Origin: a virus
Direction: 5' to 3' (one strand)
Length of the DNA stretch: 20,389 nucleotides
Virus record (IMG/VR): IMGVR_UViG_3300027759_000530
Span: 1 to 20,389 of that record
How positions within the stretch are numbered: position 1 is the first letter of the stretch; every line of letters begins with the position of its first letter. A program made the position numbers and the translations under genes. Of the stretch, positions 270-20,302 are shown in pieces. The notes under the pieces were generated by a model that searched no databases, was not told where the DNA came from, and worked only from the letters and a program-made list of their open reading frames with translations.

Positions 270-1514
270 CTAGTATCCCATAATGGATTGTCCGATTATA
301 CCGAAAGTACTTGATCCTACGATAAAAGCCTCGACGATTGGCTCGAGGGTAGTTACAGTGCATTTCATCTCATTAGGCGTAATCTGCCACGCTAGGCCCT
401 GTACCTGTAGGGTCTTAGTTATGTAACTGCCGCCGGGCTGCTCGTCGGTAATAGTGACGTTATCGAAATACTCAAGCCCGATCATCGTATCCGTCGGTAC
501 GGCCGTATTGAGCAGATCGACCGTCATAGCATCGATACGGATAGTAGTCTCGGCCCTAGTAGCTACATAGATCCGAGCTATATCTAATACCTGTGCATCG
601 GTTTCAGGGATCATGTCCGTAATGGTTGTACCGTGCGGAAAGTACTTAGCCGATGAAGTGGCATTACTTACTACTTGAGCACTACCGCTAATCCGAGTCA
701 TACTCGACTGATTGATAATTAATTTATCGTCAAAGGCGTATTTGAGATCACTTGCCGGTATCCCTGTAGTTTGATTAAAGGCTATTGCAGCATTGGCTAA
801 AGTGCCTGAGACACTATTGCGATCCTTAAATACAGCTGTACCGGAGGCGTTTATAAAATAAGCCCCCTGCTCCGCAAATTCGGCCGCTTTGAGAGCTGCG
901 AGGGACGTGCGAGCAGTACCCGGGTCTGCCTGTACGGTAGTAGATCCTGTATCTATTGTCCTCATAGAGGTTGGAAAAGAGACTTGATCGAGGATCTTGC
1001 CTATACGAGTGCCTGTAGTTTGCCCTGCCGTTGCATCGGTAATCGTTGCCACGTTAGCCATTTGAAAGAGTCGAAACGCATCCGAGCAGACAATATCTAC
1101 ATACCCTAATTCTTGGCCTGTTGGATAAGAATAGTTATATGAATCTACATAGCCTGAAAATAGAAACTTTTGAGAGGTGGAGGTAGTTGCAGCTACACGA
1201 ATCTTTCTTAGGGGAGTGAGGTAGCCGTAATACGGGCTAGCCGTATTCTGAGGATTAAAGTCGCCGTTTTGATCGATTACTCTTACCGTACAGGTGCCAG
1301 TCTCGTAAGTATCGCGCATGACGTTACGGCCCCGATTAATTTTAATTGATCTAGTCTGGTCGCTGAGATCGACTACGGGCTCTGGCACTTCACTAGAGGC
1401 GAATTGATTAACGCCGATAACGCCGTACTTAGAATCGCCCACTGTAAACGGATAGCCGAATGTAGCGCCTTGGCTGAAATCGAATGAGACTGAGATCGTT
1501 GCAGGTAAGGCCAT
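270..1514 (-). CDS. Distal/minor tail protein (tail tip), copy 1
   Basis: This 414-residue protein follows the tape measure gene, with a TAATG junction (1-base overlap), the usual place of the distal tail or baseplate hub protein. The N-terminal third (residues about 45-150) is a beta-rich domain with R-G-R-N and an F-S-G-Y-V-D stretch typical of actinophage minor tail proteins. A short motif with YGVIG near residue 30 recurs as FGIIG near the C-terminus (about 403). The copy at 15445-16689 is about 97% identical in protein, with a small cluster of replacements at residues 218-235, while the DNA differs at many third positions. I cannot tell a Dit-like from a Tal-like role. Its position makes a virion tail-tip role likely. 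Confidence 0.8.
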   Translation of the reverse strand: MALPATISVSFDFSQGATFGYPFTVGDSKYGVIGVNQFASSEVPEPVVDLSDQTRSIKINRGRNVMRDTYETGTCTVRVIDQNGDFNPQNTASPYYGYLTPLRKIRVAATTSTSQKFLFSGYVDSYNYSYPTGQELGYVDIVCSDAFRLFQMANVATITDATAGQTTGTRIGKILDQVSFPTSMRTIDTGSTTVQADPGTARTSLAALKAAEFAEQGAYFINASGTAVFKDRNSVSGTLANAAIAFNQTTGIPASDLKYAFDDKLIINQSSMTRISGSAQVVSNATSSAKYFPHGTTITDMIPETDAQVLDIARIYVATRAETTIRIDAMTVDLLNTAVPTDTMIGLEYFDNVTITDEQPGGSYITKTLQVQGLAWQITPNEMKCTVTTLEPIVEAFIVGSSTFGIIGQSIMGY

Positions 1515-3160
1515 TAGGTAGCTACCGCTCCTCTAAAGTTGCCTCTATTAACCGTGTTAAAAGATCCAGATAGTGAGTCGTTAATAGAGGAATCACGGAT
1601 GGCTCCACCTACCGTTTGACCGTCGAGCTCTACAGTTATATTGATCGGCGGCGGATTTACGCCTGCAATAACTCCAGCTCGTAACCCTCCCATTGGTCCG
1701 ACTTGGCTATAAGAATCTTTTGCATATTCTGGGACGTTAAAATTAGGTATTGGCTGATCGTAGGGGATATTGAAAGGGTTACTAGGCGCAGTAGGCGTAG
1801 TCGGTGCCATGGCAATCGGGCCCATATCTGGGGCTTTCCAATTACGATACGGGTTAGGAGCCTCAGGCGTAGCTAGTAATAAAGCGTTTAGATCGTTTTG
1901 CCGCTTTACTGCCTCCGTTAATTGACCGGCTAACTTAGTAGCGGCTGTATCGTTTTTATCTAAAAGTGCTAGCTGCAAGTTAAGGGATAGGCGATCAGTC
2001 TCGCTAATCTGTCCCTTAAGCGCAGCGGCTATACCAATACGCTCTAAGTCTAAAATTCCAGCAGATTTTTCTAACGCGGCCTTTTTCTTGGCCTCGGCTA
2101 AGCCTTTGGCCGTAAGAGCTGCTAGATCCTTTTGCCGTTTGAGAGCATCCGCCTCCGCCTTTTTTCGCTTAGCCTCCTCAGCCGCCGTAGGATAAATACC
2201 GACCGCCATAGATCCGTAGTATCCCTGTGTAGGTATAGTACGAGCCGCGGTATATTCTGCGCCAGATTTACTTAATTCGTCTAATCCCTTTTTGATTACA
2301 CTTATAGCAGTAGCAAAAGGTGAAGAATATCCGGCAACTTTGCCGCCCTTACCGCCCATACCAGGAATCTTATTTAATTTATCTATAAGTACGCCCGTAC
2401 CTATAATTGCATCGCCTACATAGGTACCAAAATCTTGCATAGAGTCCGCTAAAGGTTGGACGGTATTACCTTCACCGGCTAATAATTGTAAAGCGGTTAC
2501 TAAGCCCTTACCTATACTCTCTTTAGCCTCACCGGCGGCGGTACCAAGTAACTCTATTTGACCTGCATAAGTAGTTAGATATGCGGCACTAGCACCGCTA
2601 AATTGTGCAGTGAGTTTACTCTGCACGTCGGAGAAACTCATCGTCTTGAGTTCAGCGTTAGTAAGTCCTAGAGAATATTTTTTAAGACCCTTAGTATTAC
2701 CTACATACGCGGAGGCTAAATCGCCTACTACGCTCTCGTACTCGACACCGGATCCCCGACTTATGTCTAACGCTTGTGTAAGTAATTCTTGAGACTTAGT
2801 AACTGAGCCCGTGGTCTGTAATAGTTTTTGCATAGACGGCCGAAGCATGTCATCGGCTACCCCTGAGGCTTGAGATAACTCCGATATAAAACGCTCGATC
2901 TTAGGAGTCTCAAATGCTAAACCTAAATTTTTTACGGATACGGCTAACTGAGAGGCGGCTTTTTGATCTGCTATAAAAGCCTTAGCTGCTTCCTTACCGA
3001 ATCTAATAATGGCATCAACACTAAACGCGGCGGCAAGTGCTCCAGCCGCTTTTTTTGCGCCTTTCTCAAAAGACGATATTTCTTTACTGCCCTTTTTTAG
3101 CGCCTTGCCATCGAAGGTAGTTACAGCGCTTACGACTAAACTAGGTAACGTAGCCATCAT
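1514..3160 (-). CDS. Tail tape measure protein, copy 1
   Basis: At 548 residues this is a short tape measure. By the usual rule of about 0.15 nm per residue it predicts a tail of roughly 80 nm. The N-terminus is Ala/Lys-rich and helical (residues 1-70). The middle has the N-x-L-S-x-A-S-G-V pattern and Gly/Ala stretches of tape measure proteins. A charged coiled-coil segment rich in Lys, Ala and Glu covers about 325-420. A Pro-rich linker (about 428-490) precedes a conserved C-terminus with P-P-I-N-I-T-V-E-L-D. The start ATG overlaps the upstream gp10-like stop as ATGA. Only the Pro-rich linker differs strongly from the copy at 16689-18347. Confidence 0.9.
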   Translation of the reverse strand: MMATLPSLVVSAVTTFDGKALKKGSKEISSFEKGAKKAAGALAAAFSVDAIIRFGKEAAKAFIADQKAASQLAVSVKNLGLAFETPKIERFISELSQASGVADDMLRPSMQKLLQTTGSVTKSQELLTQALDISRGSGVEYESVVGDLASAYVGNTKGLKKYSLGLTNAELKTMSFSDVQSKLTAQFSGASAAYLTTYAGQIELLGTAAGEAKESIGKGLVTALQLLAGEGNTVQPLADSMQDFGTYVGDAIIGTGVLIDKLNKIPGMGGKGGKVAGYSSPFATAISVIKKGLDELSKSGAEYTAARTIPTQGYYGSMAVGIYPTAAEEAKRKKAEADALKRQKDLAALTAKGLAEAKKKAALEKSAGILDLERIGIAAALKGQISETDRLSLNLQLALLDKNDTAATKLAGQLTEAVKRQNDLNALLLATPEAPNPYRNWKAPDMGPIAMAPTTPTAPSNPFNIPYDQPIPNFNVPEYAKDSYSQVGPMGGLRAGVIAGVNPPPINITVELDGQTVGGAIRDSSINDSLSGSFNTVNRGNFRGAVAT

Positions 3161-3774
3161 GCAGCCTTTGTGTAGTTGCCTTTATTAAAGGCCGCTATCG
3201 TGTTTTCGATCGCTTTAATGACTGCCGCCTGAGCCTTGCCCTCATCCTCAGCCCACGCTCTAAAGATCATGCGGCCACGCTCCTCGCGCTTGCTACCGTA
3301 AAGAGGTCCCATTCGACTCACAAAATGATTGCCGGCCTCAGGGTTATTTGAGCGATAGCCGTTGCGCGAGCTATTGCCAGCTCGCCCAGCTGTCTCATAA
3401 ATAGCACCGGCAGCGGATTTATTACCTACGTAATACAGAGCTCGCCATCCGTTTTTATTCTTTTCACCGGCAGGTTGAGCATAAAAAATACCTTTTTTTA
3501 CGGTTGCATAGTCATAAAGTGGAAAGAGTCGGACCCGGCCTTCAGTATTAAAATTTCTAAAGGCTGAGTTTTTTGCCGTAATAGTCTTACCCTCGCTATT
3601 TTCATTCCACGCATAAAGATTATCCGGCTGAGGCGATGGAGCATATCCTCGAGCCTTATCTCTAATTGGCAGCATGATCGCTTTTATTTGTTTATTCATT
3701 TCTTTAAGCAGCTCGGGATCAACTTTACGGATGGCTTTGATAGTCTGCTTAACGCCTTTTACTTCTATAGGCAT
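3157..3774 (-). CDS. HK97 gp10-like head-tail/tail protein, copy 1
   Basis: This 205-residue protein opens with MPIEVKGVKQTIKAIRKVD and continues through a helical stretch to K-A-R-G-Y-A-P near residue 45. That N-terminal layout is like the HK97 gp10 family of head-tail joining or tail-completion proteins. The remainder is basic and Asn/Gly-rich with a helical Ala-rich C-terminus. A ribosome site AAAGGAG lies 7 bases before the ATG. The gene starts inside the tail chaperone -1 frame extension (26-base overlap) and ends in an ATGA overlap with the tape measure. Sitting between chaperone and tape measure is unusual for gp10 relatives, which normally precede the major tail protein, so the precise role is uncertain. 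Confidence 0.7.
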   Translation of the reverse strand: MPIEVKGVKQTIKAIRKVDPELLKEMNKQIKAIMLPIRDKARGYAPSPQPDNLYAWNENSEGKTITAKNSAFRNFNTEGRVRLFPLYDYATVKKGIFYAQPAGEKNKNGWRALYYVGNKSAAGAIYETAGRAGNSSRNGYRSNNPEAGNHFVSRMGPLYGSKREERGRMIFRAWAEDEGKAQAAVIKAIENTIAAFNKGNYTKAA

Positions 3775-3919
3775 CCGCTTGCTCCTTTGCTCGATCCTTT
3801 AACGCTTTTAATAACATTTGTAACATTGACGCATCTAAATCTATTAAAGCTTGAGGAGGGATAGCCGTCTCAATACTTAATCGAGCTATGAGATAGTGCA
3901 GGCTCTCCCTGTCTAAGCT
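3749..3919 (-). CDS. Tail assembly chaperone, -1 frameshift extension (T part), copy 1
   Basis: This frame has no start of its own. It is entered by a -1 slip at 3919-3925 and adds 56 residues to the first 84 of the upstream chaperone frame, giving a product of about 140 residues. The extension begins SLDRESLHYLIARL, includes LIDLDASMLQMLLKALK, and ends in Arg-rich residues before TAA at 3749-3751. It has the helical, acidic-then-basic look of chaperone T domains. In the second copy (18936-19106) the two base differences in this frame are both silent (Ala GCG/GCA and GCT/GCG), which supports translation. The family and position between major tail protein and tape measure are classical for G/GT-type chaperones. 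Confidence 0.82.
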   Translation of the reverse strand, partial: SLDRESLHYLIARLSIETAIPPQALIDLDASMLQMLLKALKDRAKEQADAYRSKRR

Positions 3920-4170
3920 AAAGGGTCTGACTCGGCAACCTCCACACTTTTTAGGGTGTCGAGGTAATCTGGGCCAAAAGGTTTAACTACTACGCCGCTT
4001 AATCGTAGCCCCTCCCACGATAACCAATAGACCGAGGTTTGCATTTCATCATCTCTAAAAGATTTGTGAAAGCCCTTTTTTGCATATAACTCGAACGCGT
4101 ACTCTAGTCGAGGTGTTATCTCAATATCGTGTACTGCTCCATCTACCATCGTTACGATTAGTTTTGCCAT
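3913..4170 (-). CDS. Tail assembly chaperone (G part), copy 1
   Basis: An 85-residue protein starting MAKLIVTMVDGAVHDIEITP, placed between the major tail protein and the tape measure. It includes E-Y-A-F-E-L-Y-A-K-K-G-F-H-K and a W-E-G-L-R motif, as in small actinophage chaperones of this position. It would bind and hold the tape measure during tail assembly, in both the short form and the frameshifted form. The first 60 residues differ noticeably from the second copy (for example S-V-Y-W-L-S-W against D-V-Y-A-L-S-H) while the last 25 are identical. An A/G-rich ribosome site, GGGGCAAAAA, precedes the ATG. Confidence 0.8.
   Translation of the reverse strand: MAKLIVTMVDGAVHDIEITPRLEYAFELYAKKGFHKSFRDDEMQTSVYWLSWEGLRLSGVVVKPFGPDYLDTLKSVEVAESDPLA
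3919..3925 (-). promoter_or_regulatory. Programmed -1 ribosomal frameshift site CCCTTTA, copy 1
   Basis: On the minus strand the heptamer reads C CCT TTA in the chaperone zero frame, a canonical X_XXY_YYZ slippery site. It lies two codons before the zero-frame stop TAG at 3913-3915. Slipping back one base opens a 56-codon frame running to 3749. The same heptamer is kept in the second copy. I see only short candidate pairings downstream and do not claim a stimulatory pseudoknot. Confidence 0.85.
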
Positions 4171-4194
4171 TTTTTGCCCCTTTGTTTAATTGGA

Positions 4195-4608
4195 TTATGA
4201 AGTAGTGATAGCGATAGTGCCGGATACATTCCACGTTACAGATTGAGTCGATAGGTCTCCGACTGCGCCGTTAATTGGTGTGACTCCGTTTACGAGGCAT
4301 GTCATCGTATATAATGGATTAGCGGCAGATGTGACCGCTGAAGTTTGTTTTGCAGTGACAGTAACATTCTTACCAAATACTGAAGATGAGTTTAATGTCT
4401 GTAGTGTTTTAGAGGCGGCATCATCATTATAAAACTCGATAGTAATAGATGAGGCTTCCAACCCAGCAACATAAGTGTGACCACTCTGGCCCATACTTGT
4501 GGTTTCTAACTCGTCTACGGTTCTATTTATTGTCACGCTACTGACTAAACTTGAGAGGTCCACCGCGTTTACAGTGAGTACCACTCCGTTACTTAGATAT
4601 ACTGACAC
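4195..4608 (-). CDS. Major tail (tube) protein, copy 1
   Basis: This 137-residue beta-rich protein fits a compact tail tube subunit without an added Ig domain. It contains T-I-N-R-T-V-D-E-L-E-T-T-S-M-G-Q-S-G, the early strand-and-loop pattern seen in actinophage major tail proteins, followed by Thr/Ser/Val-rich strands ending in SGTIAITTS. The start is GTG, with GAGGAA 6 bases ahead. That Shine-Dalgarno is formed by the last codons of the upstream micro-gene. The second copy (19382-19789) is only about two-thirds identical by eye and two residues shorter, making this the most diverged gene in the duplicated region. Confidence 0.82.
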   Translation of the reverse strand: MSVYLSNGVVLTVNAVDLSSLVSSVTINRTVDELETTSMGQSGHTYVAGLEASSITIEFYNDDAASKTLQTLNSSSVFGKNVTVTAKQTSAVTSAANPLYTMTCLVNGVTPINGAVGDLSTQSVTWNVSGTIAITTS

Positions 4609-4611
4609 GGT

Positions 4612-4719
4612 TTATTCCTCATCTTTCTTAGTTATTGACTTTGCAGCCATTGATTTGGTTTCGCCTATCATTTCCATAAATAGGTTTTTTTCTTTTTCCC
4701 ACTGCTCTATATCTGTCAT
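4612..4719 (-). CDS. Micro-gene, 35 residues, between tail terminator and major tail protein, copy 1
   Basis: ATG at 4719 and TAA at 4612-4614 bound a 35-codon frame. It begins MTDIEQWEKEKNLF and ends KSITKKDEE, and it is highly charged and helical, perhaps a short coiled coil. GGAG sits 7 bases before the ATG, inside the end of the tail terminator gene. The equivalent frame in the second copy (19795-19905) stays open over 36 codons although the DNA differs heavily, and keeps MTD, QW, KE, the I-G pair, T-K-S and the K-K-D-E-E end. The gene has no family I recognise. The last codons double as the Shine-Dalgarno of the major tail protein, so conservation there is not independent evidence. Confidence 0.68.
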   Translation of the reverse strand: MTDIEQWEKEKNLFMEMIGETKSMAAKSITKKDEE

Positions 4720-4722
4720 TAT

Positions 4723-5115
4723 TTAACTCCAGCTCGTTAGTACGGATATGTCAAAACTGGCAGTAAGCAAGTCGCCGCTCTGTACGCTAAGCACTGAGGG
4801 AGCCGACATACTGCCAACATTCATTACGATCGTAGAGGCGACAAGTTTATTAAAGACTGCCACCGCTAAAGTTTCAATACCGTTTAAGTTCCCTTGGTTA
4901 TCTAGCATCGGTACTGTCATAATAATTTTAAGGTTAGCTAAAGGTGAGATCGTGTTATACGTATTATTATTAGGAGTTATGTAAGGATCGCTAGGAGCCA
5001 CGATTACGCTATTAGCTGTAATAGTTGGAGGCGGAAACGCGTAGGTATTCCACACACTCGCATTAGCAAGGGCTGTAGCTAGATTAGCTCGTAGGGTAGT
5101 AATGGCCGCTGGCAT
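4723..5115 (-). CDS. Tail terminator / head-tail completion protein, copy 1
   Basis: This 130-residue protein starts MPAAITTLRANLATALAN, an N-terminal helix of the kind seen in tail terminator proteins, followed by a beta-rich body with P-S-D-P-Y-I-T-P and L-N-G-I-E-T-L-A. It lies two bases after the connector gene and before the major tail protein, the usual place for the protein that caps the tail and docks it to the head. The second copy (19908-20300) differs at only two residues (Pro/Ser near 30 and Val/Ala near 92), in strong contrast to the diverged major tail protein next door. Confidence 0.7.
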   Translation of the reverse strand: MPAAITTLRANLATALANASVWNTYAFPPPTITANSVIVAPSDPYITPNNNTYNTISPLANLKIIMTVPMLDNQGNLNGIETLAVAVFNKLVASTIVMNVGSMSAPSVLSVQSGDLLTASFDISVLTSWS

Positions 5116-5117
5116 CT

Positions 5118-5768
5118 TTAGCCCACCATCGAGTTAGGATTTTGATAGCCGGATAATAAAGCTCTTACCTTGCCGATCATCGAATTGCCCATTCGATAAG
5201 GTGACGGGCTAAAGCCATCGATCGTTACGCCGCCGGTTTGTGAGACTTGTCGAGCTTGGAAAATATCAACGGCGAGGATCATCGCGGCCTCGCGAACCGC
5301 AGGTGTAGTCGCGTACGTGTTGGTCTTTGTATCTGCTCCAACGGCTGAGCCGTAGGGGAGTACTCGATTAAAATTAGAGTTAGCGGCAATCTTAGCGAAT
5401 TGAATAAAGCTGTAACCCTGAGGCCAATTAAAGGCGTAGGTATTAAACGCTATTGATGGAAAGCTAGTGGCCGTACCGGCAGTCCACGGGATCGTGCCGG
5501 TTACTGTGTAAGTGCCGTTAAAGGTTGAGCCGCATCCACTCAAGGTTATCGAGTCCCCGGTGCTAAAGATTGCGGGATTAGCGATCATAACCGTAGCTAC
5601 GTTACTTTGTAGAGCAGTACCGACTACAGGTGCAGAATCAAACCAAAGAAATTGGTTAAGTAAATCTTGAGCAGTCTGGCAGCATGTCTCGACTATATCG
5701 CTCGAATACAAGTTTTCAATACCAAGGTTAGCTCTTAGCTCGGCCTCGGTGACGTAAGTCGCTGGCAT
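5118..5768 (-). CDS. Head-tail connector protein with an inserted beta domain, copy 1
   Basis: This 216-residue protein follows the capsid gene and a terminator. The N-terminus (MPATYVTEAELRANLGIEN, then a helix to about residue 42) and the C-terminal helix (about 155-180, A-V-R-E-A-A-M-I-L-A-V-D-I-F-Q-A-R) form the helical core of gp6/gp15-type connectors that sit under the portal. Between them, residues about 50-115 are beta-rich with S-G-C-G-S-T-F-N-G-T-Y-T-V-T, resembling the small domain inserted in many actinophage connectors. Ribosome site GGAG is 5 bases before ATG. The matching C-terminus at the right window edge is diverged but clearly homologous. Confidence 0.8.
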   Translation of the reverse strand: MPATYVTEAELRANLGIENLYSSDIVETCCQTAQDLLNQFLWFDSAPVVGTALQSNVATVMIANPAIFSTGDSITLSGCGSTFNGTYTVTGTIPWTAGTATSFPSIAFNTYAFNWPQGYSFIQFAKIAANSNFNRVLPYGSAVGADTKTNTYATTPAVREAAMILAVDIFQARQVSQTGGVTIDGFSPSPYRMGNSMIGKVRALLSGYQNPNSMVG

Positions 5769-5783
5769 CTCTACTCCAATCTT

Positions 5784-5825
5784 AAAAAAAGGCCGGTAGG
5801 GCTCATAGGGCTAGGAGCCCTACCG
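5784..5825 (-). terminator. Intrinsic terminator between capsid and connector genes
   Basis: An 11-base perfect inverted repeat (CGGTAGGGCTC at 5794-5804, GAGCCCTACCG at 5815-5825) with a 10-base loop is followed on the minus strand by GCC and seven T residues (5784-5790). That is a classic rho-independent terminator in the transcription direction, in the 74-base gap after the capsid stop. It lies inside the late operon, so it probably acts as a partial terminator. That would make more capsid than connector and tail message. Confidence 0.88.
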
Positions 5826-5842
5826 ACTATTAGGGTTATTGC

Positions 5843-7468
5843 TTAGGTGAAGTTATAGCGGATAATTCCCTTAGGCATCTTGGCGATTGTTGCCATGTAG
5901 CCGTAGATCGCTACCTGTACTTGCAAGTTGCTTACGACGTTTACGCTCATGTAAGCCTGTGGGCTCTGATAAACGGTAAACGCTTCGGGTGCGAGGATGA
6001 TTGCAGAATCGTCTACAGTCGTAGTAGCTGCGAAGTTCTTATCTACGTAAAGATCAAGACCGAGAACGTTGCCGCGAATTGAGTTAGCTGTTACGCCGCC
6101 TGCGTTATTCATTGGATTAGAGGCGCTGTAAATTGGTCGCCCGGTGGAATCTACAGCACCGAGTAGTAATTGCCACTGTGAACCGTTAGCAATGTAGTTG
6201 CTAGCAAAATAGCCAGTAGCTTCATAGACAAGTCTAGACGCTTCAGATGTGTAACCAATAATGCCGGCAGATGTAGCAGCCTGAGCAGTAGTAGCAACGG
6301 TACCGGCTGTAATTAGCGCGGCATTGACTGTCGTATCGATTGTCTTGAGGTAAGCGTTCTGTAGCTGAGTAGTGAGCTCGGCGTAGAAATTAGGGTCTGA
6401 TCGCTCTAACAATTCGACGCTGAGTGTATTCATACCTGAGTACTTAGAGACTGTACCCGTTAGGTACTCTGTAACCATACCTGTATTTTGTACAGCTCCA
6501 GCCTCGGCCTCGACCGTGACGGCAGGTGCGACGCCTGACTGACCGCCGGCGCTTGTGACAAGTGACGGTACGTTAATTGTCATGCCGCTAGTTGGCAGTG
6601 TGCCACGTGAGCAAGCATCGATAGATGGTGTACCAAAACGTGTATTGGTTGGAAACTCTGATAGGTACTGAGTTGGATTAAATGCAGGGTTAGTACTAAA
6701 TGAATCATCGGCAGCTGTTACATAAAGCTTAGAATCTTCACTACCGAGTGCAGCTTTGATCTTGTGCTCTGTATATGAGCCCATTGAGATAATAGGAGTA
6801 CGGACTCGTTGGGAGTCAAGTACGGATGGGCGAATGATCTTACGAGCGGCCTCGACTTTTTCAGCCTCGACCGGTGCATCTACCGGAGCTTGCTCCGATG
6901 TATTTTCTGGGGCTGTAGTCACAGCTTCCTCGCTTTCAGTTTCTGTTTCAACTTCTACGATGGTCGTAGAAATAGTCGTAGTTTTTTCTTTTGTGCTAGT
7001 TGCAGCTTCTAACTCTGCGCGTGCCGCCATAATTTCATCGACTGAGGCACTCGCGAAGGCCGCACTCTCGACGAGGCTTACCTCTTTGAGGACGGCCGCA
7101 GTGACGAGCAAGTAATCTCCCATCGGCTTAGAGGCGGTTACATCAACCCCTACGGATAAGCCAGAAACTAGATTTTCTTGCGCAAGGAGTAAGGCATCCT
7201 GTCCCCGGCTGCTCATACTCAATCGAAAGGATCCATAAACTCCAGCGGTTGAATCGCTAAATGAAATTGCGCGTCCTACCGGTTTATCCTGTTGATGCTG
7301 CGCTAATAATTTAACAGATGTTGCATCTGGTATAGCTATAGAGCCACGCTCAAACATAACGGGCCCGGCGCTTGTGTGTCCGACCTCGCCGTAAGGTGCG
7401 ACTAGCCCTGAGACAATACGTCTCTCGGTATCGGCGGCTTGTATTTCTTGGCTAAACGTTAGTAACAC
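5843..7468 (-). CDS. Fused prohead protease and major capsid protein (HK97 type)
   Basis: This 541-residue protein joins two normally separate genes. Residues 1-150 resemble the S78 prohead protease: H58 in AQHQQDKPVG, S105 in SGLSVGV, and L-K-E-V-S-L-V-E-S-A-A-F at 127-138. An acidic, Thr/Glu-rich linker (about 150-208) may act as the scaffold or delta domain. Residues about 212-541 are an HK97-fold capsid protein, with G-M-T-I-N-V-P near 300 and a C-terminal strand ending R-Y-N-F-T. Start is GTG at 7468 with a strong AGGAGA 6 bases ahead, overlapping the portal end by 17 bases. The protease would cut itself from the capsid during maturation. Such fusions are known in other very small actinophages. 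Confidence 0.92.
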   Translation of the reverse strand: MLLTFSQEIQAADTERRIVSGLVAPYGEVGHTSAGPVMFERGSIAIPDATSVKLLAQHQQDKPVGRAISFSDSTAGVYGSFRLSMSSRGQDALLLAQENLVSGLSVGVDVTASKPMGDYLLVTAAVLKEVSLVESAAFASASVDEIMAARAELEAATSTKEKTTTISTTIVEVETETESEEAVTTAPENTSEQAPVDAPVEAEKVEAARKIIRPSVLDSQRVRTPIISMGSYTEHKIKAALGSEDSKLYVTAADDSFSTNPAFNPTQYLSEFPTNTRFGTPSIDACSRGTLPTSGMTINVPSLVTSAGGQSGVAPAVTVEAEAGAVQNTGMVTEYLTGTVSKYSGMNTLSVELLERSDPNFYAELTTQLQNAYLKTIDTTVNAALITAGTVATTAQAATSAGIIGYTSEASRLVYEATGYFASNYIANGSQWQLLLGAVDSTGRPIYSASNPMNNAGGVTANSIRGNVLGLDLYVDKNFAATTTVDDSAIILAPEAFTVYQSPQAYMSVNVVSNLQVQVAIYGYMATIAKMPKGIIRYNFT

Positions 7469-8603
7469 TTGTATCTCCTAGCGGTGTGAGTTGCTCCATT
7501 TGTCTAGCTTGGTTTACGTCGATTAAATCTAGGCTTAGCATTTTCTCAATAATCTCTAAACGTTCTTTTGCATCTACTCGTAAGAAAGTGTCGTCTACTG
7601 CAAAACGCACCTGATTAGCAGAATTTGTTATGTCATTCATAGATAAACGATCTTCAATCGCGCAGATATACGGCTGTAGTGAATAAGCCATAAACTCTTT
7701 TCTACCGTCTAATATATTTTGGTAGGTCGTAGAGTTATTCATATCTGCGCTAATCATGTACGCCGGTACGTTCATGGCTCGTGCTATTTCTGTAGCTAAG
7801 TATTGCGATGCTTCGTTATACATCATTTCTTTAGGAGAAAATCCGATATTTTCTACTGATAAAGTGCTAGTCAAATATGCAGTACTACGCGATGCGCGAG
7901 ATGCTTTCCATGATGCAAGTAATCCCTGTATCTGAGCCTCCGGTAAATCTGCACCGTTATTTTTAATTACAGAGGTAGCCATCGGAGTAGCTGCACTTAC
8001 GGCGGCGGCTTTTTGTATATCGTAAGCAGCTTTAATAGTCGTGCCGGCAGTATCCAATACACCTGGTATTAATCCTTGAAAAGTTACAAGCGAACCGATC
8101 CCACTCATTGGTACTTTAATACCGTCTACAAAATAATCTTCAATCTCTGTACCGAATTTATTTGTCGTATATGTAACGCGATTGTTAGCAATCCACTCAA
8201 AGCCGCTAGGTCGCCCATCATCGGCATAGAGTGAACTCGTTCTCCAATACGCACAATTATAAAAGATGAGGCTGTCCACTGTGGCCGAGATAGTTACACT
8301 TCGAGGCTGTCTTTGATCTGGCTGCTCTAACCAAATAGGTGAGCCGAGTTTTTCACCGGTAGATTTTTTGTAAAGTCCCAGATCAATTCCTGAAATAACT
8401 CCGGCGATTAAATTACGGCAACGGGCAACACTGGCAACTTGTAGAGCAAAATTTCTATCGATACCGCTTGAGTTATATCCATAAGTAGAACCCGTATTAA
8501 AAGATCCATAACCGTAGCCGGTAGACATAACGGCAGGTGCGTACTGCGCCTCTACAGACGGCTTAGCAGCCGGCCTCAGTCCCAGAGTTTGCAATAATCC
8601 CAT
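7452..8603 (-). CDS. Portal protein (HK97 family)
   Basis: This 383-residue protein forms the dodecameric DNA channel at one capsid vertex. The family shows in residues about 40-75 (a helix with V-A-R-C-R-N-L-I-A), the hydrophobic core with W-I-A-N-N-R-V-T-Y near 145, and the C-terminal signature: A-R-A-M-N-V-P-A-Y-M-I, then S-T-T-Y-Q-N-I, then L-Q-P-Y-I-C-A-I-E-D-R-L, a pattern typical of phage_portal proteins. The C-terminus A-R-Q-M-E-Q-L-T-P-L-G is also typical. It lies between the large terminase and the protease-capsid gene, as expected. No good ribosome site is visible before the ATG, which sits in a small inverted repeat. Confidence 0.92.
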   Translation of the reverse strand: MGLLQTLGLRPAAKPSVEAQYAPAVMSTGYGYGSFNTGSTYGYNSSGIDRNFALQVASVARCRNLIAGVISGIDLGLYKKSTGEKLGSPIWLEQPDQRQPRSVTISATVDSLIFYNCAYWRTSSLYADDGRPSGFEWIANNRVTYTTNKFGTEIEDYFVDGIKVPMSGIGSLVTFQGLIPGVLDTAGTTIKAAYDIQKAAAVSAATPMATSVIKNNGADLPEAQIQGLLASWKASRASRSTAYLTSTLSVENIGFSPKEMMYNEASQYLATEIARAMNVPAYMISADMNNSTTYQNILDGRKEFMAYSLQPYICAIEDRLSMNDITNSANQVRFAVDDTFLRVDAKERLEIIEKMLSLDLIDVNQARQMEQLTPLGDTSVTNV

Positions 8604-8623
8604 AGTGGGATATTTTCACTATG
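8601..8623 (-). other. Inverted repeat covering the portal start codon
   Basis: CATAGTG (8601-8607) and CACTATG (8617-8623) form a 7-base stem with a 9-base loop. On the minus strand the second arm contains the portal ATG. No clear Shine-Dalgarno stands in the loop. The hairpin could hold back portal translation or be chance; the repeat itself is plain in the sequence. Confidence 0.5.
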
Positions 8624-8654
8624 TCAATCACATTTGAGATAAGCCACAACGTAT

Positions 8655-10103
8655 TTAACTATAGACTTTAGCCTCGGCCATGGGCTGAGTAAGTACATGT
8701 ACGACCATCGATAAGCCGATAGCAATATCAACGGGCCCGGCAGATTTACGGCGGACTATTCTCCAGCTAGCGTCGCTTTCTTTAGCTGCACAATTAGCCA
8801 TAGAGGTAACTAGCTCGTCTTGGCCAGAATGGACTAGCCGCTTATTAGATAGGGCCTCGTAAAGATCGCCGCTAGCTTGGTAGCCCTTTGTGCCGGATAC
8901 GTCGAGGATCTGTATACCGTTTACCTCGAGGCGTTTAGCGATTGATGCGGTCGTATATTTATCGCAGGCAACGGCCCTCGGGTAGTAAATCTTGCACCAT
9001 TTAGCAATCGCATTAGCTACAAAGAGCTCGTCTATAGATACGTCGGAGTGAAATATCTCGAGCACTGCTACACCGATACGACCATCGGCGAGGACTTGCC
9101 CCATTACGAGACTGCCGTCCCTTCTCGACGGTGCCACGTCAAAAGCAAAAATAGTAAGAGGCCCGGGTACAAGTTTTAGATCCTTGTCGCCCGACTCCTC
9201 TACCGACATATGCGGCCACGGGCTCGCCGTACTAGATATCCACTGGCATAAGAGCTCGGTTTTTGTAGTTTCAATCGGCTGTGTAGCTACCGCCTCCTCG
9301 AGTGCCTGCTCTGTGACTGTATATCCGAGTGCCGGATTAGCCATCGCCCACGCGGCGCGATCTGTAATCTTGGCAAAAGATGGAGCTGAGTATTCGTAAA
9401 ATCCAAAAGTCGGAGGCGGACTAGATAGAGCTCTCTCGCGTAAGTCATTGAGTACGACGCTAAAAGCATCCCCAGCATTTGAGGTTAAGAGAGTCTGAGC
9501 ATTAGCTTTAGCGCGAGTAGTTGGAGTAGCTGCCCGGTAGCCCTCCTCACTGATCTCTCGGATCTCATCAATGTAAAGAAATGATGCGGTACGTCCACGC
9601 GATCCATCTCGAGTCGCTGCAACTACATCTAGCCGGTGCCCGTTTTTTAGCTCGATCGACTCGGTGCCATTGGCGTATCGGATCTGCTTTACCTGTCTAC
9701 TCAGATCAGCTGAGCCCTCGATCGCGTAGCAGACTTGCCTAAAGGTATCTAAAGCCATTGATCTATTAGAGCTCATCATAAGTACGTTAGGGGAGTCAAA
9801 TAAAAACATGTGGCCTAGCATCATCATCCGAGCTAGGTGCGTTTTACCCTGTTGCCGGGCACAGAGTACGAGGCTTGTCTTACGTATAAATAAATTATCG
9901 TCACCTATAGAGGTCATGTCTCTAATTACAAAATCTTGCCACGGTAAAAGGGGCAAGCCGATGGAGTCTGCGAGCTGGGCGATCTCATCTCCGCGATTAG
10001 GGCCCTTGATGTAGGGACTATGTAGGCGAGGCTCAGTAGCCCCCATACGGGGCGGAGTCATCTGGGACATATAGGGATCAATCCTGCTCAATCTGGCCCA
10101 CAC
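8655..10103 (-). CDS. Terminase large subunit
   Basis: This is the packaging motor and nuclease. From the GTG at 10103 it has 482 residues. Walker A is ARQQGKT at 82-88, Walker B LYIDE at 176-180, and a coupling motif T-S-N-A-G near 207. The nuclease domain shows acidic residues D322 (F-A-F-D-V-A-P), D381 (A-C-D-K-Y) and D459 (G-P-V-D-I-A). An ATG at 10070 (MSQMTPPRMG) would give 471 residues and is a good alternative start, as it lies just after the HNH stop. The gene follows the HNH endonuclease and precedes the portal. I find no small terminase gene beside it. Confidence 0.95.
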   Translation of the reverse strand: MWARLSRIDPYMSQMTPPRMGATEPRLHSPYIKGPNRGDEIAQLADSIGLPLLPWQDFVIRDMTSIGDDNLFIRKTSLVLCARQQGKTHLARMMMLGHMFLFDSPNVLMMSSNRSMALDTFRQVCYAIEGSADLSRQVKQIRYANGTESIELKNGHRLDVVAATRDGSRGRTASFLYIDEIREISEEGYRAATPTTRAKANAQTLLTSNAGDAFSVVLNDLRERALSSPPPTFGFYEYSAPSFAKITDRAAWAMANPALGYTVTEQALEEAVATQPIETTKTELLCQWISSTASPWPHMSVEESGDKDLKLVPGPLTIFAFDVAPSRRDGSLVMGQVLADGRIGVAVLEIFHSDVSIDELFVANAIAKWCKIYYPRAVACDKYTTASIAKRLEVNGIQILDVSGTKGYQASGDLYEALSNKRLVHSGQDELVTSMANCAAKESDASWRIVRRKSAGPVDIAIGLSMVVHVLTQPMAEAKVYS

Positions 10104-10425
10104 ACGGACCTGCTGGGACCCTTGAGGAGGTTATCGGGGAGGTTTGGATCGGTAAGGCAGGGGGGGTAGCCAAGCGTGCTAAAAAAAGGCCCTGTGAGCG
10201 TGAACCCTTAGCGCTATTGCAGCGCTTGCAGCAAGCCAATAAGTTCTCTGGATTAATCGGATCTCCCCCGGCTTTGATACTGACCACATGATCCACGGTC
10301 GTAGCATCTTGACCACAGTAATAACACACATAACCATCTCGAGCTAAGACGATGAGCCTTACTCTTTTATAGTCTCTACTTACTCGAGGGTCTTGCCTAC
10401 CTCTGACCATCTTAGTAGTGACCAT
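10078..10425 (-). CDS. HNH endonuclease
   Basis: This 115-residue protein has the full HNH zinc-finger core: C-Y-Y-C-G near residue 36, D-H-V-V-S-I-K-A-G-G-D near 45, N-P-E-N-L then C-C-K-R-C-N-S-A-K-G near 66. Genes of this kind next to the terminase are known in several cos phages to be needed for terminase cutting of concatemers, and that is the likely role here rather than a homing nuclease. It overlaps the lysozyme-like gene by 14 bases and the terminase GTG start by 26. An alternative ATG at 10410 would remove the first overlap. The C-terminal 40 residues are Pro/Ser-rich and look disordered. Confidence 0.9.
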   Translation of the reverse strand: MVTTKMVRGRQDPRVSRDYKRVRLIVLARDGYVCYYCGQDATTVDHVVSIKAGGDPINPENLLACCKRCNSAKGSRSQGLFLARLATPPALPIQTSPITSSRVPAGPCVGQIEQD

Positions 10426-10822
10426 TCATCTTATGATATGACCACGCATTACATACAGTCTTATAGCGTGAGGCTATGTACTTAAGGCCAAGGTCTATCT
10501 GTACGTAAGGGTCATGACTCTTAAGCTTAAGCAGCTGAGGTATACCGTAGGCAGTGGACTTAGGGTTATCGGCTCGAGGATTCCATTTACTCTCTTTATC
10601 CCATAACATCTCTAAACATCGATATTGCTTAGCATCTATTATCTGTATATGAGCATATAACTTATAGCTATTAATATGATTGTTATTAACGCCCAGTGCT
10701 GGGCTTATGTTTAACCCCGTTAAACAGAGTACGCCCCATGAGATAGTTCTCCGCGAGCTACACCGCCACAGCGGCTCTCGTCGAGAGAGTGATCGTAGCG
10801 GACGTGTCAAGTACCTATTCAT
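10412..10822 (-). CDS. Lysozyme-like lytic transglycosylase (peptidoglycan hydrolase)
   Basis: From ATG at 10822 this is a 136-residue protein. Residues about 67-136 match the short SLT/goose-type lysozyme domain of actinophages: catalytic E77 in W-D-K-E-S-K-W-N-P-R-A, then P-K-S-T-A-Y-G-I-P-Q-L, D-P-Y-V-Q-I-D-L-G-L-K-Y-I, and the H-x-x-N-G-H-Y end. The N-terminus is Arg-rich, followed by a moderately hydrophobic stretch (about 27-44) that could be a weak signal or membrane anchor. An upstream TTG at 10846 would add eight residues but lies at the likely transcript start. The position next to HNH and terminase, away from the holins, suggests a virion-borne or accessory cell-wall enzyme rather than the main endolysin. 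Confidence 0.82.
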   Translation of the reverse strand: MNRYLTRPLRSLSRREPLWRCSSRRTISWGVLCLTGLNISPALGVNNNHINSYKLYAHIQIIDAKQYRCLEMLWDKESKWNPRADNPKSTAYGIPQLLKLKSHDPYVQIDLGLKYIASRYKTVCNAWSYHKMNGHY

Positions 10823-10839
10823 GCTAGACACGCCCAAAG

Positions 10840-10871
10840 TTATCAACAGATGTTATACACAGATATCCACA
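10840..10871 (+). other. Cluster of three DnaA-box-like sequences (candidate replication origin)
   Basis: Three 9-mers in the same orientation lie within 32 bases: TTATCAACA (10840-10848, one mismatch to TTATCCACA), TTATACACA (10853-10861, full match to TTATNCACA) and ATATCCACA (10863-10871, one mismatch). They fill the gap between the early nuclease gene and the late lysozyme gene. A DnaA cluster is consistent with a phage that has no polymerase, helicase or primase gene and borrows host initiation. Origin function is an inference. Confidence 0.55.
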
Positions 10872-10880
10872 CCCTGTACA
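10852..10880 (-). promoter_or_regulatory. Candidate sigma70-type late promoter
   Basis: On the minus strand TGTACA (10875-10880, 4/6 to TTGACA), a 17-base spacer, and TATAAC (10852-10857, 5/6 to TATAAT) predict a transcript start near 10845, about 23 bases before the lysozyme ATG at 10822. It would drive lysozyme, HNH, terminase, portal and capsid. The elements are interleaved with the DnaA-box cluster, so replication and late transcription could be linked. Confidence 0.4.
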
Positions 10881-10890
10881 TTCGAGTACA
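10875..10890. repeat. Inverted repeat TGTAC-N6-GTACA over the promoter -35 element
   Basis: TGTAC (10875-10879) and GTACA (10886-10890) are separated by six bases and overlap the candidate -35 box. The shape is that of a dimeric regulator binding site. No regulator gene is obvious; the unknown plus-strand protein (12650-13024) or a host factor could bind it. It is short enough to be chance. Confidence 0.3.
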
Positions 10891-10968
10891 TGCACGTAAG
10901 CCGGTAATAATTCTGAAACTACGCGTATTTGATGATTGATCTCAGTCTTGCATATTTTGCAATAATGG

Positions 10969-11448
10969 CTAATGCACTGCATAAATACTCCGAGCAAGAT
11001 CACCGATAGGCGCTAGATCATCTTGATTAATCCAGTAGCTACCATCCTTACGCCTGCGCTGGGCTACCTTGGCACTCTTAATCGGTATCCATCCAGCTAT
11101 GTAGTAGGTAGGGGATTTACCCGTGACAAGGATTGCAATATCGGAGGATCTATCTCGATCAGTCAGGATCAGGTGAGCATCTTTATAGCTAGACCACTTA
11201 ATCTCGATATTGCCACCTATATCGGCATGTAGCTTAAATGTGTTTACACCCGGCTCATAGTTTTTTATCCCGAAGTAATAGGCGACCACCATTTCAGCAC
11301 CTATTGACTCAGCATCTCGAGCAATACCCTCATGTAGGTTTACCTTTTGGAATGATCGATCGATCTTATTAGGAGACTCAAAGGCCCTGCGAAAGGCTAT
11401 TGAGGCAGCCACAAACTCATCATCGCGCTGTAAGCGCTGCATAATCAT
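10969..11448 (-). CDS. PD-(D/E)XK-like nuclease, putative recombination nuclease or resolvase
   Basis: This 159-residue protein shows a likely PD-(D/E)XK core: E52 in a helix with G-A-E-M-V-V-A-Y-Y-F-G, D76 in H-A-D-I-G-G, and E82-x-K84 in N-I-E-I-K-W, followed by strands A-H-L-I-L-T-D and S-D-I-A-I-L-V-T-G. The size and order suit either a Holliday-junction resolvase or a compact exonuclease. As the last gene of the early operon with an ERF-like annealing protein, it could supply the nuclease half of a phage recombination pair. ATG at 11448 overlaps the upstream stop as ATGA. A second ATG two codons later is possible. The fold call rests on motif reading only. Confidence 0.6.
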   Translation of the reverse strand: MIMQRLQRDDEFVAASIAFRRAFESPNKIDRSFQKVNLHEGIARDAESIGAEMVVAYYFGIKNYEPGVNTFKLHADIGGNIEIKWSSYKDAHLILTDRDRSSDIAILVTGKSPTYYIAGWIPIKSAKVAQRRRKDGSYWINQDDLAPIGDLARSIYAVH

Positions 11449-11651
11449 TTACGATTACACTCCAAACAAATCCAGAGCTGACTAGGGCCCTCGCCGGTAT
11501 AGCCGCCATGTAAACGGTTGGAAAAGTGTTCGCCCTTGTCACACCATTCAATCGACGGAGGAGTGACGGTATCCCGTAACTCGGTGCCGTCCATGTCGAT
11601 ACGTAGGCGTTCACCTGTCGATAGATTGATCATTTCGAGATCGCCTGTCAT
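11445..11651 (-). CDS. Small Cys/His protein, possible zinc-binding
   Basis: This 68-residue protein starts at ATG 11651, which overlaps the ERF gene stop as ATGA, and ends in an ATGA overlap with the nuclease gene. The C-terminal half carries C37, H42, H48, C62 and C65, the last pair as W-I-C-L-E-C-N, which would suit one zinc site. The N-terminal half (N-L-S-T-G-E-R-L-R-I-D-M-D-G) looks like two beta strands. I do not recognise the family. It is not a WhiB: the four-cysteine pattern of that family is absent. The tight operon suggests a role in recombination or replication. Confidence 0.65.
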   Translation of the reverse strand: MTGDLEMINLSTGERLRIDMDGTELRDTVTPPSIEWCDKGEHFSNRLHGGYTGEGPSQLWICLECNRK

Positions 11652-12229
11652 TTTTCCCACCGAGGAGGACACTGCACATCGCGGTTACTCTCAGTGCAGA
11701 CAAATCCTTTATATGGTTTCCCAGTCTTGCCGTTCACGCCCTCTTTATAGGCCATAGCCCCATGCCGGCAACTTGGCACATCGAGGACAGCTGTAGGGGT
11801 CACTAGCTGCTGGCCCACGTTTTCAATCGCTGAGCCAAAACTCCAAGGATCTCGCTCCTCGGTGACAGTCATAGTCACACTGCCTACAGGCGGTACGACA
11901 GATAAACCGACCCGGCGCATCTCCTCAAAGCTAGGCCGATTGGCATTTTCGCTAAATTTAGATATGCCGCCAGTGTGTAGGGAACGCCCTATAGATGATG
12001 TAACACAATTCTCCATAGGAAAGCGATTAGATGAGCTACGGATCTCCTCAGCGAAATCACTGGCATAAGGGATCATGTCCTGTACATCTCGGTATAAATC
12101 TGTCTGGACAATGTAACGAGTACCGTCTTGATAGACGAGCTTTGTATCTATGCGACCGGTGGGGTAGTGGAGCCAAAACTTCTCTATACGTTCAGCTACA
12201 GATTCATAGCCCTCGAGTGGATTAGCCAT
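11648..12229 (-). CDS. ERF-like single-strand annealing protein with C-terminal Cys/His tail
   Basis: From ATG 12229 this protein has 193 residues. Residues 5-85 follow the ERF-like pattern of actinophages: G-Y-x-S-V-A-E-R-I-E-K-F-W-L-H-Y-P-T-G-R-I, then M-E-N-C-V-T-S-S-I-G-R-S-L at 72-84, matching the E-x-x-x-T-S-A-x-G-R-A-L signature. A low-complexity middle leads to a C-terminal module with C154, H156, C178 and C187 and the G-K-P-Y-K-G-F-V-C stretch often seen at the end of these proteins. It would anneal single strands and recombine or circularise the genome. The start overlaps the upstream membrane-protein gene by 8 bases; a GTG at 12241 is a weaker start. Confidence 0.75.
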   Translation of the reverse strand: MANPLEGYESVAERIEKFWLHYPTGRIDTKLVYQDGTRYIVQTDLYRDVQDMIPYASDFAEEIRSSSNRFPMENCVTSSIGRSLHTGGISKFSENANRPSFEEMRRVGLSVVPPVGSVTMTVTEERDPWSFGSAIENVGQQLVTPTAVLDVPSCRHGAMAYKEGVNGKTGKPYKGFVCTESNRDVQCPPRWEK

Positions 12230-12383
12230 GGTTGGTCTCACGCTCTGATCCGATTCTCATACCAACAGATCGACCGCGCCAGTATCCGTCTTTCTTACCG
12301 GCTGAGTGGCCGAGTGTGTAAAAGATTGTGGCCGATGCGAATGTATATATAACTATCCATACAAATAGCGTTTCATAATTCAT
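12222..12383 (-). CDS. Small membrane protein, 53 residues, first gene of the early operon
   Basis: ATG at 12383 and TAA at 12222-12224 bound a 53-codon frame. A strong AAGGGG lies about 8 bases upstream. Residues 5-24 (T-L-F-V-W-I-V-I-Y-T-F-A-S-A-T-I-F-Y) form one likely membrane helix, followed by a basic, Gly-rich cytoplasmic tail with G-K-K-D-G-Y-W-R-G-R-S-V-G, a pattern common in tiny single-pass actinophage proteins. Its end overlaps the ERF start by 8 bases, indicating translational coupling. Function is unknown; host takeover at the membrane is possible but unproven. Confidence 0.72.
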   Translation of the reverse strand: MNYETLFVWIVIYTFASATIFYTLGHSAGKKDGYWRGRSVGMRIGSERETNHG

Positions 12384-12529
12384 AACTTTTGCCCCTTAGT
12401 GTTATGGTCGTAACACGGGAACAGATCAAGTTATGTAAAGCTAGTAGGAGCGGATCACGCTCAAATTAACTTGACATAATGTAACGAATCGGATGGAAAA
12501 TAATTATGTGTTTTTCACCACAATTTGTC

Positions 12530-12559
12530 TTGACTTGCTCCTCAGTTCGACGGTTGAAT
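12530..12559 (+). promoter_or_regulatory. Candidate promoter for the plus-strand gene
   Basis: TTGACT (12530-12535, 5/6 to TTGACA), an 18-base spacer and TTGAAT (12554-12559, 4/6 to TATAAT) would start transcription near 12566. That gives a leader of about 85 bases before the ATG at 12650, containing most of the hairpin structure described separately. The -10 is weak, so this remains a candidate. Confidence 0.35.
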
Positions 12560-12614
12560 GAGTGGTAACACTCACTTGCTAAGACTCTAGGGGATACCCC
12601 AGACACTAGGCAAG
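12559..12614 (+). other. Structured leader: two adjacent hairpins
   Basis: The first hairpin is TGAGTG (12559-12564), GTAA loop, CACTCA (12569-12574). The second runs from CTTGC (12575-12579) to GCAAG (12610-12614) and contains a tight inner stem GGGG-ATA-CCCC (12590-12600) extended by TCT/AGA with one bulged A. No T run follows, so it is not an intrinsic terminator for the plus strand. It may be a regulatory RNA leader, a protein-binding DNA site or a packaging/end site. Confidence 0.45.
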
Positions 12615-12649
12615 TACCGACACGCGGACGCTACAGAAATGGGGCTAAA

Positions 12650-13024
12650 ATGTCTGCACCTAAAATGCACCCTAACGGGTTTGTGAGTGTCACTAGTACG
12701 GCCAATATGCAGGGCAGAATACAGCTATTTGGTTATGGCTTTCATGAACAAGCGGTAAACCCGGGGGACCTAGTAATCGTTACTACAGATTATCTAGTCG
12801 AAAATGCCAATAGACAAAAAATAGAATTTTGTCTAAAGGTACGCGGTAGGGACATGCACCTATTTGAGGCTGCATCACATACGGCGCGGTTGCTCTGGGA
12901 TGATAATAAACATTGGCTTACGGCGGCTAACGGTACGCTCGGCCTCGACATGCGCGGTAAGAGTGAAATACGCCTATCGGAGTCACTAGCTAACATAGCG
13001 GCGTTTTACCCCCCCTCCGACTAA
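12650..13024 (+). CDS. Unknown protein, 124 residues, the only plus-strand gene
   Basis: ATG at 12650 is preceded by GGGG five bases upstream. The product is predicted mostly beta: V-S-V-T-S-T-A-N-M-Q-G-R-I-Q-L-F-G-Y-G-F near the start, D-L-V-I-V-T-T-D-Y-L-V around 40-50, K-I-E-F-C-L-K-V-R-G-R-D around 57-68, then a region with L-L-W-D-D-N-K-H-W-L and a C-terminus ending F-Y-P-P-S-D. I recognise no family, membrane segment, helix-turn-helix or catalytic motif. It faces the holin genes tail to tail with an 11-base gap and runs against every other gene. A regulatory or early host-interaction role is a guess from position. Confidence 0.75.
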   Translation: MSAPKMHPNGFVSVTSTANMQGRIQLFGYGFHEQAVNPGDLVIVTTDYLVENANRQKIEFCLKVRGRDMHLFEAASHTARLLWDDNKHWLTAANGTLGLDMRGKSEIRLSESLANIAAFYPPSD

Positions 13025-13035
13025 GTGATTATGCG

Positions 13036-13239
13036 CTAGCGGCCTGAGTTTTCGACCACGATCACATAAAGGCGATCGAGTCGCTCCTCAATTCTTGTTA
13101 CTTGGTCTTTCATGGAATTACCGCCATTAGGTAAGAGCTCACGCATAATAGATTTAACCAAGTACCTAACCAAAAAAAAGAATGAGGAGATGAGCGTAGC
13201 GATAGCTACGCCCATCCCGGCCCATTCAGTCGGAGTCAC
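13036..13239 (-). CDS. Small membrane protein with C-terminal coiled coil, probable second holin or holin partner
   Basis: This 67-residue protein has one membrane helix at about residues 7-27 (G-M-G-V-A-I-A-T-L-I-S-S-F-F-F-L-V), a basic R-x-L-V-K-S patch, and a charged helix with D-Q-V-T-R-I-E-E-R-L-D-R-L (about 45-57), a likely short coiled coil. The layout resembles the small single-pass proteins often found next to actinophage holins. The ATG overlaps the upstream holin stop as ATGA. It is the last gene of the late transcript before the convergent plus-strand gene. It could be an antiholin, a pinholin-like partner or a second holin. Confidence 0.7.
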   Translation of the reverse strand: MTPTEWAGMGVAIATLISSFFFLVRYLVKSIMRELLPNGGNSMKDQVTRIEERLDRLYVIVVENSGR

Positions 13240-13421
13240 TTCCCCTTGACTCCGAAAGCTGCATCGTTAGGGTTTAGCCAGCGCAGCGCTACAGGTACAA
13301 GGGCTGCAACTCCGCCCATGGCTAGTTTTTTTGGATCAGTAATGCCGGCAGCGTACATACCTAGCGCAGCTGCTAAAAATGATCTGGCCCATGAGGCCGC
13401 GGTCTCTTTTAATTCTTTCAT
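13236..13421 (-). CDS. Holin
   Basis: This 61-residue protein has a basic/charged N-terminus (M-K-E-L-K-E-T-A-A-S-W-A-R), a first hydrophobic helix at about 13-27 (S-F-L-A-A-A-L-G-M-Y-A-A-G), a short turn with D-P-K-K, a second helix at about 34-48 (A-M-G-G-V-A-A-L-V-P-V-A-L) and a polar tail. Two helices in about 60 residues fit the r1t-like holins of actinophages. The gene overlaps the upstream endolysin stop as ATGA. Holin pores would let the M15 peptidase reach the wall. Confidence 0.8.
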   Translation of the reverse strand: MKELKETAASWARSFLAAALGMYAAGITDPKKLAMGGVAALVPVALRWLNPNDAAFGVKGK

Positions 13422-13888
13422 CGTTTTAGTCCTAACTTAGAGATTAGCGCCTCGACTTTTGCCGGTGCGATTTCAACCTCGAAGTGCATCTCGTCGATCC
13501 TGCCCTTGTAATCGCCGCCCCACTTGAGGCCGTATTTTTTAGCAAGTGCCCTAATCATCGGTACTTTCTCAGGCGGGAATGTGCCCACCTTGCCTAGAGG
13601 ATGTTTAGTCGCGTTAAGGTCGATCGCCGTGCCGGATGAGTGACACGAAAGGCGATCAGTAGATCCGCGTACATTTCTAAACGCGTACGCCCAGTCATCG
13701 TAAACGCCTTGATCTATCGGCTCTATTAGCTCATGAAACTCAGAGGCGAAAGCTGCAAGTAATGGCCCTACACTCTCGGCACATTTAAGTTTACGATCCG
13801 TACCCTTTACCGGGTAAGAGGTAATTCTAATTTCATCTGGGTCTTTACTGGCCGGGTAGCCATTGTAGCTCCGCAACGTGTTCTGCAT
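13418..13888 (-). CDS. M15-family peptidase endolysin
   Basis: This 156-residue protein shows the zinc peptidase signature of VanY/L-Ala-D-Glu peptidases: S-C-H-S-S-G-T-A-I-D at 81-90 with H83 and D90, and D-E-M-H-F-E at 132-137 with the third zinc ligand H135. It cleaves peptide bonds in the cell wall. It is a single catalytic domain with no visible wall-binding domain, no signal peptide and no membrane segment, so release depends on the holin genes directly downstream. The start at 13888 lies inside the preceding gene (44-base overlap); no other good start precedes the domain. Confidence 0.88.
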   Translation of the reverse strand: MQNTLRSYNGYPASKDPDEIRITSYPVKGTDRKLKCAESVGPLLAAFASEFHELIEPIDQGVYDDWAYAFRNVRGSTDRLSCHSSGTAIDLNATKHPLGKVGTFPPEKVPMIRALAKKYGLKWGGDYKGRIDEMHFEVEIAPAKVEALISKLGLKR

Positions 13889-14171
13889 TTGAGCACTCCC
13901 ATCGCATTAAATCGTTAAGTACTATTTCAGAATGTCCGCACTTTGGCTCAGGCGGAATAAATGCATCAAAAACTTCATCGTATTTATAACCGATTCCGGC
14001 ATAGTTATATCTAATGTTGCCGTTATAACTTGTACGTTTACATACTTGTCCTCGGATTTCTCCGTACGCCTGCTCCCAATCAGTTATGCCGTCTATGATT
14101 TCCCACTCATCGCGGCCTGTAATAACCTCGGTAACGATATTATTCTCATCTAAAAATGCATAGTGAGCCAT
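13845..14171 (-). CDS. Phage tail-associated protein of the MAHYAxLDENNIV type
   Basis: This 108-residue protein starts MAHYAFLDENNIVTEVI and contains T-S-Y-N-G-N-I-R-Y-N-Y-A-G-I-G-Y-K-Y-D and D-A-F-I-P-P, the hallmarks of a small family widespread in aquatic phages next to tail fibre genes. The usual continuation after P-P is replaced by a Cys-containing tail (C-G-H-S-E-I-V-L-N-D-L-M-R-W-E-C-S). TAATG joins it to the fibre gene upstream. It is probably a virion or fibre-assembly component; the biochemical role of the family is not established. Confidence 0.75.
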   Translation of the reverse strand: MAHYAFLDENNIVTEVITGRDEWEIIDGITDWEQAYGEIRGQVCKRTSYNGNIRYNYAGIGYKYDEVFDAFIPPEPKCGHSEIVLNDLMRWECSNAEHVAELQWLPGQ

Positions 14172-15435: not shown

Positions 15436-15444
15436 CTGAACCCC

Positions 15445-18961: not shown

Positions 18962-19106
18962 CCGCTTGCTCCTTTGCTCGATCCTTTAATGCTTTTAATA
19001 ACATTTGTAACATTGACGCATCTAAATCTATTAACGCTTGAGGAGGGATAGCCGTCTCAATACTTAATCGAGCTATGAGATAGTGCAGGCTCTCCCTGTC
19101 TAAGCT
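18936..19106 (-). CDS. Tail assembly chaperone, -1 frameshift extension (T part), copy 2
   Basis: This is the 56-residue extension matching 3749-3919 with identical protein. Both base differences between copies (in the codons for the Ala of L-K-A-L-K and of P-Q-A-L) are silent in this frame. It has no start codon of its own and is reached only by the slip at 19106-19112. It ends at TAA 18936-18938, 26 bases inside the gp10-like gene. Confidence 0.82.
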   Translation of the reverse strand, partial: SLDRESLHYLIARLSIETAIPPQALIDLDASMLQMLLKALKDRAKEQADAYRSKRR

Positions 19107-19357: not shown

Positions 19358-19381
19358 GATGTGCCCCTTTGTTTAATTGGA

Positions 19382-19789: not shown

Positions 19790-19794
19790 GGTTA

Positions 19795-19905: not shown

Positions 19906-19907
19906 AG

Positions 19908-20300: not shown

Positions 20301-20302
20301 CT

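Follow-up and report, generated by a model that had tools for sequence, protein, structure and literature searches.

The window analysed here is the entire 20,389-bp IMG/VR record IMGVR_UViG_3300027759_000530, which is classed as linear. On its minus strand, it carries genes for a major head protein (5843-7468; phrog_2263, E 1.6e-59), a portal protein (7452-8603; phrog_12, E 6.7e-43) and a terminase large subunit (8655-10103; phrog_9, E 1.7e-59), each of which, like the endolysin gene, is found in one copy in the window. An HNH endonuclease gene (10078-10425) is found just upstream of the gene for the terminase large subunit. Further on, the ORF 11648-12241 matches phrog_11717, of unknown function, in its N-terminal part and, in its C-terminal 40 residues, Phage_gp49 of mycobacteriophages L5/D29 (PF25690) instead of ERF. 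The region 14171-15435 encodes a 300-aa protein that is rich in glycine and matches phrog_2295, of unknown function; beside it is an ORF (15046-15435) matching the minor tail/tail fiber families phrog_8780 and phrog_16053. The proteins of this region are probably parts of the tail tip or fibre.

Other tail genes occur towards both ends of the window. A major tail protein is encoded at 4195-4608 (phrog_4574, E 6.5e-19) and has a counterpart at 19382-19789; in the terms used below, the former belongs to strain X and the latter to strain Y. A presumed tape-measure gene of 548 aa is found at 1514-3160, and another of 552 aa at 16689-18347. A gene for a 205-aa protein (3157-3774) separates the first of these from the major tail gene; like both tape-measure genes and the major tail gene at 4195-4608, it is on the minus strand. 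Neither the presumed tape measure nor the 205-aa protein gave a significant family match, and we name the former from its position and length.

Self-comparison of the window revealed one long overlap only, between its two ends. Positions 2-1651 are 85.9% identical to 15179-16826, and 1838-5152 are 91.7% identical to 17025-20337. The overlap amounts to 5.2 kb and is located exactly at both contig ends, each of which is cut inside the repeat. Within this overlap the original prediction described a tract free of substitutions, from 1848 to 3275 against 17035-18462, flanked by sequence with many silent differences. Base comparison bears this out and extends the run by one base: over 1429 bp, 1848-3276 shows 0 differences to 17035-18463, the offset between the two passages being 15,187 bp. 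The second-longest exact run in the overlap is 124 bp. Outside the block, 655 of 3763 alignment columns differ (gaps counted), and these differences are spread very unevenly.

The contrast is clearest at fourfold degenerate sites. Within the block, none of 243 differ (0/226 in the presumed tape measure and 0/17 in the adjoining gene), whereas outside it 21/48 differ in the remaining part of the tape-measure gene and 16/77 in the rest of the 3157-3774 gene. Across the flanking genes, 7-51% of these sites differ, as illustrated by the 270-1514 gene (70/208), the major tail gene (31/61) and the least diverged one, at 4723-5115 (5/68). The borders are sharp: the final difference falls at 1847 and the next at 3277, followed by about 10% divergence. 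Under an evenly spread mean difference rate, such a run would have a chance of about 1e-80; this figure overstates the surprise, as divergence is patchy, yet no other patch of the overlap exceeds 124 bp. The identity of the block is therefore real in the sequence and not due to chance. With respect to gene content, the predicted positions were correct, since the block carries codons 1-437 of the 548 in the presumed tape measure, together with the final 39 codons of the 3157-3774 gene, within which its right border falls, but calling that gene gp10-like finds no family match to lean on. Adjoining the block, the presumed tape measure has a proline-rich, hypervariable C-terminal part: between the strains, in 1656-1846 compared with 16839-17034, some 30-40% of bases differ and indels occur as well.

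To place the record, we gathered relatives via the terminase and tape-measure proteins. Many of their contigs measure about 15.0-16 kb. The terminase had no counterpart in the bacterial genomes searched, which therefore yielded no prophage or host evidence, and phage records gave only matches below 60% identity, the best among the matches listed being about 29%, to Arthrobacter phages. Four of the relatives, L023, L026, L090 (15,087-15,556 bp) and L046 (15,747 bp), carry exact repeats of 123-127 bp at their ends, the size that the k-mer overlap of circular contigs should have at a k which these repeats place near 127. The window is thus longer than the genomes of its relatives, and its end genes recur at an offset of one genome. 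Given the single-copy head and packaging genes, the 15,187-bp offset and the 15-16 kb of the relatives, the window represents 1.34 turns of a 15.2-kb map rather than a genome in which the tail module has been duplicated.

Direct evidence comes from L083 (IMGVR_UViG_3300027969_001836), an independent contig of 7737 bp. Over 4540 bases, L083 is an exact match to window positions 13924-18463, a stretch made up of the second passage's left flank and the block itself, the latter being 100% identical here too; the 552-aa tape-measure gene is accordingly identical over its full length. From 18463, L083 runs straight on, still without a mismatch, into 3277-6452, the sequence to the right of the first passage. 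Read from this join, the left flank of the second passage, the block and the right flank of the first belong to one genome, which we call strain X and which therefore closes into a circle with a length of exactly 15,187 bp. Once around, X comprises 3277-17034 (X-right, middle and X-left) and one copy of the block, and it contains no internal repeat even at k=33. The path of L083 through the block is probably unambiguous, because no Y-type sequence from its sample turned up in our searches.

Two pieces of the window remain, both differing from X by about 14% or more. The first, Y-left (1-1847), is homologous to X-left (15179-17034), with the 85.9% identity over 2-1651 given above. The second, Y-right (18464-20389), is homologous to 3277-5202 of X-right and 85.5% identical to the X-type contig L083. 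Among the loci compared, no sequence is closer to Y-left than X itself. Y-right, however, is 91.1% identical to another relative, L162, over 1455 bp, compared with 79.4% for X-right. Most simply, the two end pieces would belong to a second strain, Y, in which they flank the block, and we take both to come from a single strain. The 548-aa tape-measure gene as assembled would accordingly combine the block with a Y-left part. Searches with Y-left and Y-right patterns and with the Y major tail protein found no near-identical record that could represent a separate Y contig, and a Y-specific 24-mer was absent from other IMG/VR records.

Taken together, these results lead us to read the record, with a probability of about 0.9, as a metagenomic contig that runs past the full length of its source, a small tailed phage whose circular map measures 15,187 bp, and that joins strains X and Y through the block. 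Letter for letter, the contig equals Y-left, the block, the X circle and Y-right, and no unitig other than the block is common to the X and Y pieces at k=127. The 1429-bp stretch of tail genes that X and Y have in common would then form one node of the assembly graph, with two entries (X-left and Y-left) and two exits (X-right and Y-right), X being a loop and Y a path. The assembler would have come in via Y-left, passed the node, gone once round X, passed the node again and left towards Y-right; that it chose to traverse the loop is a step which we infer. The lack of silent changes in the block may be explained by the same node having been written twice. Since the passages come from different strains, the two ends of the window do not form a perfect repeat and the record is classed as linear. 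Among the explanations first offered for the block, collapse by an assembler came nearest, but a contig that wraps around a circle and joins two strains goes beyond a collapsed repeat.

Other over-long records of the same type exist in other samples. The contig G002 (L136, with pieces L252 and L253; IMGVR_UViG_3300047560_000424) measures 21,644 bp and wraps by about 5 kb; its initial 127 bases recur exactly at 16595-16721, which is its longest exact repeat. The contig G001 (L206, with pieces L250 and L251; IMGVR_UViG_3300027782_000239) reaches 31,965 bp, with terminase genes at 12000-13388 and 28180-29571. It covers nearly two genome turns from two different strains, 70-93% identical by segment, and is likely another wrap between strains. 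In both records, about 16.2-16.6 kb separate the two terminase genes, and the copies are 70-93% alike.

Why X and Y should share a node is a separate question, and one answer is compatible with the assembly reading: the 1429-bp tail segment may truly be identical in both strains, following a recent homologous exchange. We favour this explanation and consider it probable. For the node to be entered and left as proposed, about one k-mer of identity between Y and X is needed at either border, and any SNPs flattened inside would have to lie more than k apart, about 1 per 128 bp, which would allow at most about 11 in the block. Much of the flanks, at 10-40% divergence, is far above this level. Even with SNPs flattened, the block is therefore far closer than its flanks, and exchange between X and Y is probably behind the shared stretch. 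Consistently, silent divergence drops abruptly at the sharp borders, while relatives diverge in this same stretch, and the greater proximity of Y-right to a third lineage (91% to L162) than to X suggests that these phages are mosaic. Against this stand the missing independent Y contig, as the middle of the block could differ in Y if its path had been lost at low coverage, and the lack of any recombinase identified among the scanned proteins. Exchange by a phage ERF system had been one of the options put forward in the original prediction. Homologous exchange, placed between strains, is the part of this proposal that we retain; the ERF part is not supported, as no ERF-family protein was matched in Pfam or PHROGs among those of the replication-region proteins that were scanned.

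Could the record instead correspond to a real molecule of at least 20.4 kb? A circular X integrated into Y through one crossover within the block, as a Campbell-like cointegrate or a mixed replicative concatemer, would give exactly the observed order of Y-left, block, X, block and Y-right, and such a crossover in the tail genes could take place during co-infection of the two strains. We regard this as very unlikely. L083 displays the normal junction of X-left, block and X-right, the relatives are 15-16 kb long and over-length records of the same type recur in other samples. Moreover, the 1429-bp repeat is longer than typical short-read fragments, so that, if short reads were used, the linkage across it would not come from read evidence.

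On its own, the block would also resemble a conversion tract, and the original prediction had indeed considered two diverged copies in one genome exposed to gene conversion. Two paralogous tail modules homogenised within one 20.4-kb genome are hardly credible here, given that the 5.2-kb duplication sits exactly at the contig ends, both of which are cut inside the repeat, and that its offset equals the genome length of the family. The join in L083, which connects both copies directly, and the resulting 15,187-bp circle led us to reject any duplication within one genome. A conserved functional DNA or RNA element, named beforehand as the finding that would overturn a recent exchange and in itself able to account for the zero silent differences between the passages, is refuted to near certainty: in three relatives (L084, L085 and L090), the tape-measure gene differs at about half of its fourfold sites, as do neighbouring genes, the loci that come next in similarity show only 70-79% identity over the block, and the window has no Rfam match.

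The apparent duplication is thus an assembly artefact at a naturally shared segment, an ordinary effect of metagenome assembly. Where strains share a segment, the path that an assembler takes through them can look like the duplication of a tail module that includes a gene-conversion tract; here, one short sibling contig was enough to settle the matter. Properly read, the record consists of one 15,187-bp genome with a piece of a second strain at each end, and any gene count, genome length or 'duplication' taken from the 20,389-bp sequence would be wrong. The biology that remains, mosaic tail genes in phages, is already well known.

The closest known systems include the circularly assembled small tailed phages of IMG/VR represented by L023, L026 and L046, whose head, portal and terminase DNA is about 73-77% identical to that of the window over 6 kb. 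They share with L090 a genome length of about 15-16 kb, whereas the window reaches 20.4 kb through its wrap. For IMG/VR contigs in which a genome is repeated, the authors of CheckV considered an assembly artefact probable (PMC8116208). The window resembles these contigs in being longer than the genome, with a part of it repeated, and it differs from them in making only 1.34 turns and in drawing its two passages from different strains. Phables, in turn, described unitigs shared by phage strains in assembly graphs (PMC10563150). As in its mosaic strain components, X and Y have a unitig in common and differ elsewhere, a situation that assemblers are unable to separate; in contrast to those components, the shared unitig did not break the contig but was written twice within a single one.
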